Shown here piece after piece: positions 3,262 to 32,598 of a DNA stretch of 64,000 nucleotides; the first letter of the stretch is position 1, and each line of letters opens with the position of its first letter. The notes beneath the pieces were generated by a model. The model made no database searches. It was not told where the DNA came from and worked only from the letters and a program-made list of their open reading frames with translations. Location: contig NZ_CP034900.1 in the NCBI RefSeq assembly GCF_005082365.1, forward strand, positions 124,001-188,000, in the 5' to 3' direction. A program made the translations under genes and the position numbers. The stretch is from Buchnera aphidicola (Artemisaphis artemisicola). GTDB lineage: Bacteria; Pseudomonadota; Gammaproteobacteria; Enterobacterales; Enterobacteriaceae.

Positions 3262-3266
3262 TTTAT

Positions 3267-3297
3267 ATGCTAGTCAAAATAATTGACTAGCATTTTT
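3267..3297 (+). terminator. Rho-independent terminator of aroH
   Basis: Perfect 11-bp stem ATGCTAGTCAA (3267-3277) / TTGACTAGCAT (3283-3293), 5-nt loop AATAA, and a run of five T (3293-3297). It lies 6 bp after the aroH stop and before the thrS start. It is one of the best-formed terminators in the window. Confidence 0.9.
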
Positions 3298-3333
3298 AAA
3301 GATTTTAAAAATATTTTTATTAAGGATTTAAGA

Positions 3334-5262
3334 ATGCCTGTAATAAGATTTTGTGATGGAAGTCAACAGGTCTATAAGAATTCTGTTCGATTAATAGAAG
3401 TTATTAAGCATTTACAACCAAATATAACAAAATCTATTATTGCTATTACTGTTAATAGTCATTTTTCAAACTTTAATACTTTAATTACAGAAGATTCTTT
3501 TGTAGAATTTATTAAGATCCAAGATAATAAAGCATTAAATGTTATTCGATATTCTTGCGCGCAACTTTTAAGTTATGCTGTAAAAAATATATGGCCACTT
3601 GCACAAATTTCTGAAAATAATATTACAAATAATGGTTTTTACTGTGATATAGATTTAAAAAACAAAATTACAGAAGAAGATTTTGTATTATTAGAAACTG
3701 ATATGAAACGTCTTATTAAAAAAGAATATAATATATTACATCAATTAGTTTCTTATGATCAAGCCATTGAAATATTTCAAAAACGTTGTGAAAAGTATAA
3801 AATATCTTTAATAAATAAAAAAAATGATCCTAAAAAGAATATTGCTTTATATTATCATGAAAATTATGTAGATATTAATATAGGCATGCAAGTGTTAAAT
3901 ATAAAATTTTGTAAAAATTTTAAACTGCAAAAAATTGGAGGTGTTTATTGGGAAGGAAATAAAAAAAATAAGATGTTACAGCGTATTTATGGTACTGCTT
4001 GGTCTAATCAAAAAGAATTAGAAAAATATCTAAATTATTTAAAAGAATTAGAAAAAAGAGATCATAGAAAGATTGGTGTTTTCCTCGAATTATATCATAT
4101 GCAAGAAGAATCTCCAGGAATGATTTTTTGGCATAATAAAGGTTGGATTATTTTTAATGAACTTGAGAATTTTGTTCGAAAAAAATTAAAAGAATATAAA
4201 TATCAAGAAGTTAAAACTCCATTATTAATTGATAAATTAATATGGCAAAAAAGCGGGCATTGGGATAATTATAAAAATGCTATTTTCACAACACCATCAG
4301 AACATCGAGAATATTGCATTAAACCAATGAATTGTCCTGGTCATGTTCAAATTTTTAATAGTGAATTAAAATCTTATCGAGATTTGCCTATTCGAATAGC
4401 AGAATTTGGAAGTTGTCATCGTAATGAACCTTCAGGTTCATTGCATGGTCTTATGCGAGTACGTAATTTTACTCAAGATGATGCACATATTTTTTGCACG
4501 AGAGAACAAGTGCGTTCTGAAATTAACAATTGTATTAAAATGATATATGATTTATACAGTATATTTAATTTTAAAAAAATATTAGTTAAACTTTCTACTC
4601 GTCCAGAAAAACGTATTGGTACTGATTCTTTATGGGATCAGTCTGAAAAAGATTTATCTGATATGCTGATAGAAAATCATTTATCATTTCAATATCAATT
4701 AGGAGAAGGTGCTTTTTATGGACCGAAAATTGAATTTATTCTACAAGATTCTTTAGATCGAAATTGGCAATGTGGAACAATTCAACTTGATTTCTACTTA
4801 CCATCACGTTTAAATTCATTTTATATTAATGAAAAGAACGAACGTAAAGTTCCTGTAATTATTCATCGGGCTATATTAGGTTCTATCGAACGTTTTATTG
4901 GTATATTAATTGAAGAATGTTCAGGAAATTTACCAACATGGTTATCTCCAATACAAGTCGTAATTATTAGTGTGCATAATATTGGTTTAGATTATATTAA
5001 GAAGTTAGTTAAAACTTTTTCTATTATCAACATTCGAATAGAATCTGATATAAGAAATGAAAAAATAGGCTTTAAAATTCGTGAACATACACTGCGTAAA
5101 ATTCCTTATATACTAATTTGTGGAGAAAAAGAAATCAGCGCTAATAAGATATCTGTTCGAAATAGAAATGGAAATTGTTTTACAATGATTGATGTTGATG
5201 TTTTTATTAAAAAGTTACAAGAAGAAATTATTACTCGTAGCTTTTATCAAATGGAGGAATAA
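3334..5262 (+). CDS. thrS: Threonyl-tRNA synthetase (editing site lost)
   Basis: Charges tRNA-Thr. From ATG 3334 (MPVIRFCDGSQ; AAGGA upstream) it has 642 residues, the same as E. coli. Domains in order: TGS (about 1-62), editing domain (about 63-224), class II catalytic core (about 243-535), anticodon-binding domain (536-642). Catalytic zinc ligands are present: Cys in MNCPGH, His in DDAHIF, His in PVIIHRA. The editing domain, which in E. coli removes mis-attached serine using H73, H77, C182 and H186, has Y73, Q77, N182 and Q186 at exactly those positions, so hydrolytic editing should be dead although the domain fold is retained. An upstream in-frame start at 3283 is rejected because it lies inside the aroH terminator. 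It is followed by infC with 3 bp between stop and start. Confidence 0.97.
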   Translation: MPVIRFCDGSQQVYKNSVRLIEVIKHLQPNITKSIIAITVNSHFSNFNTLITEDSFVEFIKIQDNKALNVIRYSCAQLLSYAVKNIWPLAQISENNITNNGFYCDIDLKNKITEEDFVLLETDMKRLIKKEYNILHQLVSYDQAIEIFQKRCEKYKISLINKKNDPKKNIALYYHENYVDINIGMQVLNIKFCKNFKLQKIGGVYWEGNKKNKMLQRIYGTAWSNQKELEKYLNYLKELEKRDHRKIGVFLELYHMQEESPGMIFWHNKGWIIFNELENFVRKKLKEYKYQEVKTPLLIDKLIWQKSGHWDNYKNAIFTTPSEHREYCIKPMNCPGHVQIFNSELKSYRDLPIRIAEFGSCHRNEPSGSLHGLMRVRNFTQDDAHIFCTREQVRSEINNCIKMIYDLYSIFNFKKILVKLSTRPEKRIGTDSLWDQSEKDLSDMLIENHLSFQYQLGEGAFYGPKIEFILQDSLDRNWQCGTIQLDFYLPSRLNSFYINEKNERKVPVIIHRAILGSIERFIGILIEECSGNLPTWLSPIQVVIISVHNIGLDYIKKLVKTFSIINIRIESDIRNEKIGFKIREHTLRKIPYILICGEKEISANKISVRNRNGNCFTMIDVDVFIKKLQEEIITRSFYQMEE

Positions 5263-5268
5263 AGTATT
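5253..5268 (+). promoter_or_regulatory. Strong Shine-Dalgarno and AUU start of infC
   Basis: GGAGG at 5253-5257, inside the last codons of thrS, lies 8 nt before ATT at 5266-5268. The ATT is in frame with infC and is followed by codons for KGGKRVQ, the known N-terminus of IF3. The same AUU start is used in E. coli, where IF3 discriminates against it and so represses its own synthesis. Confidence 0.92.
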
Positions 5269-7676: not shown

Positions 7677-10067
7677 ATGAAATTCAGTGAAAAATGGTTA
7701 CGTGAATGGATAGATTTAAAAGTTGAAAGTCATGTTTTATATGACCAAATTTCTAGTGCTGGTATTGAAGTTGAGTCAATAGAAAAATTTAAACCTGTGT
7801 TAAATGGAGTTGTAGTTGGCAAAATAATAAAATGTATTACGCATTCTCAATCTGATAAATTAAAAATAATAAAAGTAGATATAGGTATAAAAAAATTATT
7901 AAATATTGTATGTGGAGCGTCTAATTGTCGTAATGGGATAAAGGTTGCAGTTGCTACTATTGGATCTTTATTAAAAAAAAATATAAAAATTGATATCAAA
8001 TTTATAAAAGGAGAATTATCTGAAGGAATGTTATGTTCTTATTTTGATTTAGGCATGTTTTATAGCAATAAAGTTATTGAATTAACTCATGAAATTCCTT
8101 TAGGAACTAGTATTAATAATTGTTCATTATTACAAGATAATATCATTAAAGTTTCTATTACATCTAATCGTCCAGATGGTTTAAGTATTTTAGGAATATC
8201 ACGTAATATAGCTGCTATTAATAATTTTAGACAAGTTACTTTAAAACAAAAAATCATTCCTGCAGTAATTCAAAGAAAAATTAAAATCAATATTCAATCT
8301 GAAAAAAAATGCATTCGTTATTCAGGAAGAATTATAGAAAATATCAATGTAAATGTTGATACTCCTGATTGGATGAAAAAAAAATTATTTTTTTCTGATA
8401 TGTTATCAGAAAATATAATTACTAATATTATTAACTATGTATTAATTGAATTTGGTCAGCCATTAAATGCATTAGACTCAGATTATATTTTGGAAAAAAA
8501 TATTATAGTTCGTATGGCAAAAGATTATGAAAACATAGTTTTACAAGATAATACTCAGATAACTTTAAATAAAAATATATTAGTTTTTTCTGATAGAAAA
8601 AAAATATTATCTCTTCCTGGAAATATAAATTCTCATCATGTTGATATTAATAAAAACACTAAAAATATTTTTTTAAATGCGTATTTAATTAAAAAAGGTT
8701 CAATGTTTGATATTTTTAAACTTGTTAATAATAATAAGATATTAGAATATTACAATTATGGGATTGATCCATTAAAGCAATTTGATGCCATTGAGTATGC
8801 AACTGATTTAATTATAAAAATCTGTGGAGGAATTCCTGGTCCAATTAACACTAAAGATATTAATTCATTTATTTTTTATAATAACAAAACAATAAGGTTG
8901 AATCATAAAGTACTAAATAAAAAAATTGGGTTTTTTATTCATGAAAATATTATTTCAAAAATTTTATATAATCTTGATTATCAGTTGACTTTTACAAAAA
9001 CTTTTTGGGATGTTGTGCCTCCTAGTTGGAGATTCGATATATTAATTGAAGAAGACGTAATTAGTGATATAATTCGAATATATGGATATAATAATATAAG
9101 TTTAACTCCGTTACAAGAAAACTTAAATATCATCAAAAAAAATAAATCAGTAGATTTTTTGTTAAGCAGATCTACTACTATATTGGTAAATAAAGGTTAT
9201 TATGAAGCAATAAATTATGGCTTCATAGATCCTAAAATATGTAATATAATTTTTCCAAATGAAGAAAAAATATTATTATCTAATCCTATTTCTCAAGATA
9301 TGTCTTGTATGCGTTCATCTCTATGGCCTGGTTTACTTAAAAATATTTCATATAATAAAAATCGTCAGCAACAAAGTATTCGTTTTTTTGAAAGCGGATT
9401 TTGTTTCTCTATAGATAAGGAAGAAACTCTTGGTATAAGACAAGATATGTTTTTATCTGGAGTTATAAGTGGAAATTTCATTGAAGAAAATTGGCATGAT
9501 AAAACAAGAAAAGTAGATTTTTATGATTTAAAAGGAGATTTAGAATCTGTTTTAGAATCAATATGTGATATTAATAATATAGAATTTCAACGTAAATTGG
9601 TTTCTGGATTGCATCCTGAACAAAGCGCTGCAATATATCTAAAAAATAATTATATTGGTAGTATTGGTGCAATTGATCCTAGATTAGAAAAAAAACTAAA
9701 TGTGAATAGTGCTACTTTTTTATTTGAAATATCTTTTAAGAATTTTTTAAATATTAAACCATTAAAAATTAAAGAAATTTCAAAGTTTCCTACTATTCGA
9801 AGAGATATTGCAATATTGATTGCAGAAGATATTCCAGCTTATGCTATTATTAAAAAATGTAAAAAATTTTTTACAAACAAAAAAGTAGAAATTAATTTAT
9901 TTGATGTATATTCTTGTAAAGAATTTGCTAGTCAGAAAAAAAGTTTAGGTATTAGTTTTATTTTTCAGGACGAAAAAAAAACTTTACAAGATAACGAAAT
10001 TGATTTAATGATGAATGATTGTATAAAAACATTAAAGGAAAAATTTCAAGTTATCTTAAGGAAATAA
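7677..10067 (+). CDS. pheT: Phenylalanyl-tRNA synthetase beta subunit (editing pocket eroded)
   Basis: Beta subunit, 796 residues (E. coli 795). In order: N-terminal region with tRNA-binding EMAP-like domain (about 40-150), B3/B4 editing domain (about 210-365), B5, the catalytic-like fold, and the C-terminal anticodon-binding FDX-ACB domain (about 700-796, starting [13 protein letters not shown]). The B3/B4 site that hydrolyses Tyr-tRNA-Phe in E. coli looks destroyed: the His of GQPMHAFD is N264 (GQPLNALD), the Gly-rich loop GGIFGGEHSG has become [10 protein letters not shown], and the Glu of LLECA (E. coli E334) is N334. Domains away from the pocket are well conserved, so charging should be normal. 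Four bp separate it from ihfA. Confidence 0.96.
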
Positions 10068-29299: not shown

Positions 29300-29776
29300 T
29301 TAACGATTTGTTTGTGCAAGAATAATAATTCCAAAAAAAATACTACAATCAGCTATATTAAAAGTAGCAAAATGCCAAGTATCAAGATGCATATCAATAA
29401 AATCTATTACAAATCCATAAAGAATTCGATCAATTAAATTTCCAATTGCCCCTGCCATTATTAAACAATAAGCAGTTATTTTTTTTATTTCATTTTTTTG
29501 AGATTTTATAATTATTCTGATTATTACTAATACAGTAGAAATGCTAACAGTTGATAAAAACCATCTTTGCCATCCTGATTGATTAGACAAGAAACTAAAT
29601 GCTGCGCCATCATTATGTACTTGCACAATGCTTACTATTGGTAATATTTCTATAGTTTCACTTATTTTTATGTGTTTTATAATCCAATATTTACTGAAAA
29701 AATCGATGATAAGAATTGGAATTATTATGATAATATTAAACCATTTGTTGTATTTTTTAAAATATTGATTTTTCAT
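29300..29776 (-). CDS. lspA: Lipoprotein signal peptidase (signal peptidase II)
   Basis: Inner-membrane aspartyl protease that cleaves prolipoprotein signal peptides. 158 residues (E. coli 164), with four hydrophobic segments. The catalytic Asp motifs are present: GNLIDRILYGFVIDFID and FATFNIADCSIF. Its ATG at 29776 shares one base with the ileS stop codon (TAATG), indicating translational coupling. The ancestral ribF-ileS-lspA order is kept. Confidence 0.96.
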   Translation of the reverse strand: MKNQYFKKYNKWFNIIIIIPILIIDFFSKYWIIKHIKISETIEILPIVSIVQVHNDGAAFSFLSNQSGWQRWFLSTVSISTVLVIIRIIIKSQKNEIKKITAYCLIMAGAIGNLIDRILYGFVIDFIDMHLDTWHFATFNIADCSIFFGIIILAQTNR

Positions 29777-32598
29777 TATATGAATATACGTTTTTCACCA
29801 TTTCCTATTGTGTTTAAAATACAACGATTACAAATATTATCATCGTGTACATGATTGTTATCAGGAATGAAATAATGCCAACATCTAAGACATTTCTTAC
29901 CTTCAATTTTGTTTAAAGAAACTTTTAAATTAGGAATTTTTTTGCTTTTTTTCGTATTTTTAGGAGCTATATCATATATTTTTATTTTAACATCAGATGT
30001 TAAAAATATGAATTTTATTTCTTTTTCTAAAATCTTTAATTTTTTAAATAATGAAAGAGAAACATATAGAGTTATACAACATTCTAGTGAATTAGTAATA
30101 TTTTTTTTTGTGATTTCTTCTTCTATAAATTTATTAATTTCATTTTTGATTTTAATTATTTCATTCCAAAATTGATTATTCAGCAAATCATCTTGATTTA
30201 AGTTAAATAATTTATCAAACCACTCTTCCATAAATACATATTGATATTTATTATTTGGTAAATATTTCCATATTTCATGAGCAGTAAAAGATAATATTGG
30301 TGCTATCCATCGTACAAGTGCATTAATAATATAGTACATTGCTGTTTGACAACTACGTCTTTCTTTACTATTTTTCTTTAAAGTATATTGTCTATCTTTT
30401 ATAATATCGAGATAGAAAGAGCCCATTTCTATAGAACAAAAATACATTATACGTTGTACTACTGCATGAAAATTATAATTCTTATAAGATTCTATAATTT
30501 CTTCTTGAACTATTTTTGTTTGTCCTATAGCCCATTTATCTAAAAAAATCATATTATTTTTAGATATAATATTTTCTTTTGGATTAAAATCGTTTATATT
30601 GGCTAATATAAAACGTGCTGTATTTCTAATTCTTCTATATATATCTGATGAATTTTTTAAGATTTCATTAGAGATACAAATATCACTAGAATAATTAGAA
30701 GATGCAACCCATAATCTTAAAACATCAGCTCCTAATGTATTTATTATATTGTTAGGACTAATAGTATTTCCTATAGATTTAGACATTTTTTGTCCTTGTG
30801 CATCTACTACAAATCCGTGAGTTAATACTTTAGAATATGGTGCTTTTTTAGTTATTAATGTTGATATAATAAGTGAAGACATAAACCAACCTCTATGTTG
30901 ATCGGATCCTTCTAAATACATATCTGCACTATTTTTAGTATATTTTTTATTTTTATATTCTATTGATGTATGTGTATTGCCTGATTCAAACCATACATCT
31001 AATATATCTAAAGATTTATTATATAGTGCATATTCTTGATCTAATATTTCTTTTAAATCTATATTCCACCATGCTTGTATTCCTTCTATTTCTACTTTTT
31101 TTGCTATTTTTTCCATTAAAAAAAATGTTTTAGGATGTATATTACCTGTTTTTTTGTTTATAAAAATTGACATTGGAACACCCCATTGTCTTTGTCTTGA
31201 GATGCACCAATCAGGTCTTTTTTTAATCATTTCTTTAATTCTTAATTCTCCCCATTCAGGGATCCAAGATACTTTTTTTATTTCTTTTAATAATTTATCA
31301 CGTAATTGTTCTCGATCTATATTAATGAACCATTGTGGAGTTGCTCTAAATATAATTGGACTTTTGTGTCTCCAACAATGTGGATAACTATGTAGCAAAG
31401 AATCATGATGAAACAATACATTATTTTTAATTAATAATTTTATAATAATTGAGTTAGATTTTAAAACGTTTAATCCATTTAATTGTGGATGTACATAATT
31501 TTCATAATTTCCTTGAGAATTTACTAAATTATTAATTTTAATATTATATTGTTTACAAACAATATAATCATCTAAACCATGATCTGGTGCGGTATGAACA
31601 GCTCCAGTACCTGATTCTAAAGTTACATGTTTTCCTAATATTACAGGTAAATTAACATTTTTTAAAAATGGATGTAAAAATTTTGTATATTCTAAATATT
31701 TACCTTTGATATAATTTATTGATGTCCATTTTTTAATTTTTAGTATATATAATATATTTTTGACTAATTTTTCTGCTATAATTAAATTATATTTTGGAGT
31801 TTCTATTAATTCATATTTAAATTCTGGATGTATTGAAATAGCTTGACTAGATGGAAGAGTCCAAGGTGTAGTAGTCCAAATAGGAAGATAAACTTCTTTT
31901 TTATTTAATATTTTATAATTAAATAATTTTTCTATAAGATTTACATCTAGACATTTAAAACCTACAATAATTGAATCTGAAGTTTTAGAAGAATATTCAA
32001 TTTCTGCTTCAGACAATGATGAAGAACATTTAAGACACCAGTATACAGGCTTAAAATCTTTATATAAGTATTTTTTTTTAATAATTTTTGATAATGTTCT
32101 AATAATATTTGCTTCATTTTTAAAATTCATCGTTAGATGAGAATTTTTCCAATCACCTATGACTCCTAATCTAATAAAATCTTTTTTTTGTTTTTCAACT
32201 TGTTCTTTTGCATATTGTCTACATTTTGTTTGAAATTCTATAGTAGATATTTTTTTATCATTAATTTTTAGTTTTTCTTCAATTTTTTGTTCAATTGGCA
32301 ATCCATGGCAGTCCCAAGATGGAATATAAGGTGCATCGAAACCTGATAAGTTTTTAGATTTTATAATGATATCTTTTAAAATTTTATTTACTGCATGTCC
32401 GATATGAATATTTCCATTAGCGTATGGCGGACCATCATGCAGAAAAAATATTTTTTTTTCTGATTTTGTTTTTCTAATTAATTTATATAAATTATTTTCG
32501 TACCAATCTTTTAATATTAGAGGTTCTTTTTTTGATAAATTTCCTTTCATGGAAAATTTTGTTTTAGGTAAATTTAAACTTTTTTTATAATCATTCAT
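29776..32598 (-). CDS. ileS: Isoleucyl-tRNA synthetase
   Basis: Class I synthetase, 940 residues (E. coli 938). HIGH motif within PPYANGNIHIGHAVNKILK (about 58-75) and KMSKS within GQKMSKSIGNT are present. The CP1 editing domain appears functional: the Thr-rich TTTPWTLP and GTGAVHTAPDHGLDDY motifs, including the key His and Asp, are intact, in contrast to ThrRS and PheRS in this window. The C-terminal zinc finger has both CxxC pairs (CLRCWHY and CNRCI). It is 17 bp downstream of ribF and overlaps lspA by one base. Confidence 0.98.
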   Translation of the reverse strand: MNDYKKSLNLPKTKFSMKGNLSKKEPLILKDWYENNLYKLIRKTKSEKKIFFLHDGPPYANGNIHIGHAVNKILKDIIIKSKNLSGFDAPYIPSWDCHGLPIEQKIEEKLKINDKKISTIEFQTKCRQYAKEQVEKQKKDFIRLGVIGDWKNSHLTMNFKNEANIIRTLSKIIKKKYLYKDFKPVYWCLKCSSSLSEAEIEYSSKTSDSIIVGFKCLDVNLIEKLFNYKILNKKEVYLPIWTTTPWTLPSSQAISIHPEFKYELIETPKYNLIIAEKLVKNILYILKIKKWTSINYIKGKYLEYTKFLHPFLKNVNLPVILGKHVTLESGTGAVHTAPDHGLDDYIVCKQYNIKINNLVNSQGNYENYVHPQLNGLNVLKSNSIIIKLLIKNNVLFHHDSLLHSYPHCWRHKSPIIFRATPQWFINIDREQLRDKLLKEIKKVSWIPEWGELRIKEMIKKRPDWCISRQRQWGVPMSIFINKKTGNIHPKTFFLMEKIAKKVEIEGIQAWWNIDLKEILDQEYALYNKSLDILDVWFESGNTHTSIEYKNKKYTKNSADMYLEGSDQHRGWFMSSLIISTLITKKAPYSKVLTHGFVVDAQGQKMSKSIGNTISPNNIINTLGADVLRLWVASSNYSSDICISNEILKNSSDIYRRIRNTARFILANINDFNPKENIISKNNMIFLDKWAIGQTKIVQEEIIESYKNYNFHAVVQRIMYFCSIEMGSFYLDIIKDRQYTLKKNSKERRSCQTAMYYIINALVRWIAPILSFTAHEIWKYLPNNKYQYVFMEEWFDKLFNLNQDDLLNNQFWNEIIKIKNEINKFIEEEITKKNITNSLECCITLYVSLSLFKKLKILEKEIKFIFLTSDVKIKIYDIAPKNTKKSKKIPNLKVSLNKIEGKKCLRCWHYFIPDNNHVHDDNICNRCILNTIGNGEKRIFI

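Follow-up and report, generated by a model that had tools for sequence, protein, structure and literature searches.

Degenerate editing sites of aminoacyl-tRNA synthetases (aaRSs) have been described for host-restricted bacteria with small genomes (Melnikov et al. 2018 PNAS, as cited in PMC7373986, PMC10057733 and PMC11020763). Going by these citing papers, editing-domain degeneration in such bacteria is established, and the original prediction for the DNA analyzed here, which referred to loss of editing as a general trend in host-restricted microbes, agrees with what was already published. The Buchnera genome from which this DNA derives resembles the bacteria of that study, as cited, in having degenerate editing sites while free-living relatives keep theirs. 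Beyond the cited trend, the dating of the loss across the genus, its selectivity across enzymes and a conserved pocket of replacement residues were worked out for Buchnera here. Mycoplasma has degenerate editing domains in the same three enzymes, ThrRS, PheRS and LeuRS (Li et al. 2011, via PMC7373986 and PMC4014445). However, Mycoplasma is an independent lineage, and at most two losses per genome are said to be known (PMC7373986), whereas in the Buchnera genome three enzymes are without key residues.

Among individual enzymes, the yeast mitochondrial ThrRS MST1 (PMC4267643) has no post-transfer editing and Ser-tRNA-Thr can form, as is likewise predicted for Buchnera; MST1 is without the entire editing domain, whereas Buchnera ThrRS keeps it. 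In the Anabaena ThrRS T2 (PMC4787780) editing is impaired and the domain is kept, as in Buchnera. In contrast to the Buchnera enzyme, which is the sole copy, T2 is a second copy that retains the HxxxH and DxCRGPH motifs and is hindered by an insertion. The editing domain of E. coli ThrRS (1TJE, 1QF6) has fold, length, D180 and K156 in common with Buchnera ThrRS, but all four catalytic or ligand residues and Gly95 are changed in the latter. In E. coli all four residues, H73, H77, C182 and H186, are critical for editing, and kcat is reduced more than 500-fold by C182A/S, 7000-fold by H73A and 70-fold by H186A (PMC4041444). Serine is held by H73 and Gly95, and C182 touches the 2'-OH of A76 (PMC7302879).

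The thrS gene and its editing residues

The window, i.e. the whole stretch of 64,000 nucleotides analyzed, carries thrS at 3334..5262 on the forward strand, as do all features of the gene given below. The encoded threonyl-tRNA synthetase of 642 aa matches E. coli ThrRS 1QF6 along its entire length (E 1e-265) and is 58% identical to the MG1655 enzyme over the full 642 residues. It has N1-N2 and anticodon-binding domains and is single copy in the genome, which comprises 641,024 bases on two contigs, the second being the 7,618-base leucine plasmid (Buchnera pLeu). Almost every sequence match of this plasmid was to Buchnera aphidicola, the best at 83%, and the nearest hits came from aphids of the tribe Macrosiphini. 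The N1 domain (residues 1-62; 3334..3519) was delimited by alignment to E. coli ThrRS and a structure model. It is followed by the N2 editing domain (residues 63-224; 3520..4005; model, Pfam tRNA_SAD 30 bits), in which the catalytic residues are lost and the fold is kept, by the catalytic domain (4060..4935) and by the anticodon-binding domain (4936..5259; PF03129). The catalytic domain shows a class II core with an intact zinc site, formed by C334 (4333), H385 (4486) and H511 (4864), as had been predicted; R363, D180 and K156 are unchanged as well.

The four editing codons read as claimed in the original prediction. Codon 73 (TAT, 3550..3552) specifies Tyr in place of E. coli His73, codon 77 (CAA, 3562..3564) Gln in place of His77, codon 182 (AAT, 3877..3879) Asn in place of Cys182 and codon 186 (CAA, 3889..3891) Gln in place of His186. 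End-to-end alignment confirmed all four substitutions (H73Y, H77Q, C182N, H186Q), and the HxxxH and CxxxH pattern of editing-competent ThrRSs is absent. Further changes in the editing site are H81Y (TAT, 3574..3576), G95N (AAT, 3616..3618) at the glycine that binds serine in E. coli (PMC7302879), and Y104C (TGT, 3643..3645). Codon 174 (TAT, 3853..3855) specifies Tyr, where MG1655 has Phe and the family sample His. The claim of a full-length domain alignable without gaps held up: the alignment was ungapped through both motifs, and the N2 model (pLDDT 89.7) had 1TJE as its top PDB match with a TM of 0.93.

Two observations were made at the borders of the gene. Upstream, 72 bases (3262-3333) separate thrS from the DAHP synthase gene; autoregulation through the ThrRS N-terminal domain is unlikely, because this gap is probably too short for an operator like that of E. 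coli thrS. Downstream, infC at 5266 has apparently retained the rare ATT start (ATT AAA GGT GGA AAA), as in E. coli.

Distribution across the genus and the probable loss of Ser-tRNA-Thr editing

The ThrRS sequences of 36 Buchnera aphidicola genomes (the genus sample) and 28 free-living members of the family were compared. HHCH was kept in 28/28 free-living members, so that the 641 kb source genome combines genome reduction with relatives that keep the site. All four residues were changed in 32/36 genomes of the genus, which excludes a sequencing quirk; the other four keep one residue each, H77 at loci L006 and L018 and H73 at L011 and L023. Total loss within a retained domain, called notable in the original prediction, is therefore the norm in the genus. 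Gln186 (36/36) and Tyr81 (36/36) were found throughout, and Gln77 (34/36), Tyr174 (34/36) and Cys104 (33/36) nearly so, while positions 73 and 95 varied. The predicted Asn182 is present, yet it is private to the source genome (GAT to AAT); the remaining 35 of the 36 genomes have Asp182.

A scan of named genomes gave three loci only. Among the named Buchnera beyond the genus group, Pemphigus has YQCQ and Periphyllus NHLQ, both without H73 and H186. Since H186 is missing from both, H186Q probably predates the split of these lineages and the loss of C182 came later, going by a tree that is partly resolved. In other small-genome relatives, single-residue losses concerned H73 in 6/7 cases, and the editing domain was lost or wrecked in eight. 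At L102-L107, ThrRSs of small-genome relatives were without N1-N2 domains or had decayed remnants. One Buchnera thrS (L037; G008:C1:3721-5645) is split into two frames, the first covering residues 1-422 and the second, which contains stops, residues 411-642.

Based on the E. coli mutants and on the roles of H73, Gly95 and C182, the ThrRS of the source genome is very likely devoid of post-transfer editing of Ser-tRNA-Thr. The mutant data (PMC4041444) thus strongly support the predicted inability to clear this product in cis. Because D180 and K156 are retained, N2 may still have a weak residual hydrolytic activity. A substitute was searched for by homology in the whole source genome, a method that an unrelated editor would escape. 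No free-standing trans editor was detected, as tRNA_SAD (PF07973) occurred only in AlaRS and ThrRS and the INS-type editing domain (PF04073) only in ProRS; there was no second ThrRS. In the ProRS INS domain (G000:C1:263792-264832) K279 is kept and F replaces H369. The D-aminoacyl-tRNA deacylase DTD (PF02580) was likewise undetected in the whole source genome, and proofreading by DTD therefore seems absent. Thr-to-Ser mistranslation is predicted for this organism; the serine error could be reduced if threonine is abundant relative to serine or if pre-transfer editing operates.

A probably dead site in a retained domain

We consider it probable that the post-transfer editing site is dead and that the domain is kept for folding and tRNA handling. 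With H73, H77, C182, H186 and the serine-binding Gly95 gone, the enzyme would be unable to hydrolyze Ser-tRNA-Thr. N1-N2 would be retained since it presumably continues to fold onto the rest of the enzyme and to hold the acceptor arm of the tRNA, and so contributes to charging and perhaps to pre-transfer editing that depends on tRNA. Early in the history of the genus, a conserved packing set (Q77, Y81, C104, Y174, D182, Q186) would have filled the emptied pocket, with the two serine-holding positions, 73 and 95, left to drift. Only the zinc-based active site, the supply of Thr relative to Ser and whatever pre-transfer editing exists would then hold misacylation in check, and therefore some Ser at Thr codons would be expected. 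We regard folding and acceptor-arm handling as the most likely reasons for retention. At ranks 7-16 of the fold search, an N1-N2 fold without an editing function turned up in a mammalian mitoribosome large-subunit protein, which we take to be mL39, and this provides a precedent. In yeast, the ThrRS editing domain aids aminoacylation and tRNA-dependent pre-transfer editing even with the histidines mutated (PMC4267643). The role of N1-N2 in charging is not indispensable in general, because other symbionts have deleted the domain.

By default, such a loss is attributed to the weaker selection that acts in small populations passing through bottlenecks. A more specific cause, compatible with a dead site in a kept domain but on balance unlikely, would be that mischarging is rare because Buchnera makes threonine in excess and has to import its serine. 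The source genome and its relatives contain thrC, whereas serA was undetected in them, so threonine may exceed serine in the source organism; PheRS editing, where the error is Tyr, is lost as well, which also counts for this cause. However, among 40 small-genome relatives nine losses occurred in genomes without thrC, and the association of thrC with loss reached p = 0.06, shared ancestry being uncorrected.

Plain relaxed decay, with a useless domain drifting under A+T mutation pressure until its deletion, was judged against the codon data. This explanation would account for the drift at positions 73 and 95, for the truncated or deleted editing domains of several relatives in the family and for the visible decay of LeuRS editing residues. 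Constraint on N2 is also plainly lower than on the catalytic domain, for which dN/dS was 0.07-0.16. However, the values for N2 were 0.16-0.36 in 7/8 close pairs (0.83 in one), and N2 stop codons were found in none of the genomes of the genus. At 4-fold sites of thrS (about 91% A+T) a mean of 6.6 changes was counted and 1/52 sites was invariant. In contrast, Q186, Y81 and D182 are near-invariant in the 36 genomes, and codon 186 underwent 5 codon changes among 35 genomes, all of them synonymous. Amino-acid changes numbered 0 at position 81, 1 each at 182 and 174, 2 each at 104 and 77, 9 at 95 and 10 at 73. From the codon counts, dN/dS and column tests taken together, N2 is under purifying selection, though relaxed; positions 77, 81, 104, 174, 182 and 186 appear fixed with new residues and the serine-binding positions 73 and 95 appear to drift. 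The codon data thus already disfavor plain decay, which we regard as improbable.

Fixed replacements could also indicate that the pocket was rebuilt and selected for a job other than Ser-tRNA-Thr hydrolysis, with a parallel rebuilding in PheRS. Such a job might be, for instance, hydrolysis of another kind, or steering the acceptor end so that Ser-AMP is preferentially hydrolyzed before transfer; we give this only a small chance of being correct. Still less probable, and in our estimate very unlikely, is a remodelled pocket that works with altered chemistry or an altered ligand, such as hydrolysis based on Asp182 and Gln186 or binding of another aminoacyl-tRNA. The column tests, for which the set of four ligands had been fixed beforehand by the earlier finding, gave a divided answer here. 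The four ligand columns were more conserved than the other replaced N2 columns (P = 0.007), which together with the retained K156 and D180 and the same pattern of fixed replacements in PheRS beta would speak for a working pocket. Against N2 columns in general, however, they were not more conserved (P = 0.10), and packing would explain their constancy. Moreover, free drift is seen at H73, whose mutation affects the kinetics most strongly, and at the serine-binding Gly95, and the source genome itself carries D182N. A permutation test on a pocket of eight positions gave P = 0.00015, but this set was partly picked post hoc and was not relied on. Compensatory changes beside the threonine-binding site were also looked for; among the pocket positions inspected only 477 and 509 were clearly changed, the others being invariant or nearly so, and no adaptation was evident. 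Finally, a still active site with its four ligands moved to adjacent positions has next to no chance, given the ungapped alignment through both motifs, the superposition of the model on 1TJE and the additional replacement of H81 and Y104.

Proofreading in other synthetases and biological meaning

Under the preferred reading of a dead site in a kept domain, ThrRS would be one of several synthetases from which proofreading disappears selectively, with Phe lost, Leu being lost and Ala and Ile kept. For PheRS, LeuRS, AlaRS, IleRS and ValRS the residues inspected were those which we take to be the editing residues. In PheRS beta, encoded by pheT (7677..10067, forward strand), these are lost (R244L, H265N, G318N, E334N, T354N, A356I), and the replacements are near-fixed in the genus (L244 21/21, N354 21/21, N265 20/21). 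LeuRS of the source genome (L118 265-2844; G000:C1:480155-482731) has lost T247, T248, T252 and D345. Its CP1 residues are mixed in the genus (D345 in 24/30, T252 in 10/30), and judged by them the CP1 editing site is in ongoing decay. IleRS, encoded by ileS (29776..32598, reverse strand), has intact CP1 editing residues except N250S. Across the genus the editing residues were unchanged in 30/30 genomes for IleRS and in 21/21 for AlaRS; those of ValRS were intact in the source genome, to which this last comparison was confined. As read from these residues, the loss of proofreading is selective, ThrRS and PheRS having lost it, LeuRS decaying and AlaRS and IleRS having kept it.

Buchnera offers a clean natural experiment, in which an obligate nutritional symbiont has fixed the loss of two proofreading sites and a third is going, with at least two unchanged genus-wide. 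With this contrast it can be asked which decoding errors are intolerable to a cell, and whether tRNA handling is the reason for retaining a dead editing domain. Given the replacements conserved across the genus, lost catalytic residues should not be equated with a drifting domain.
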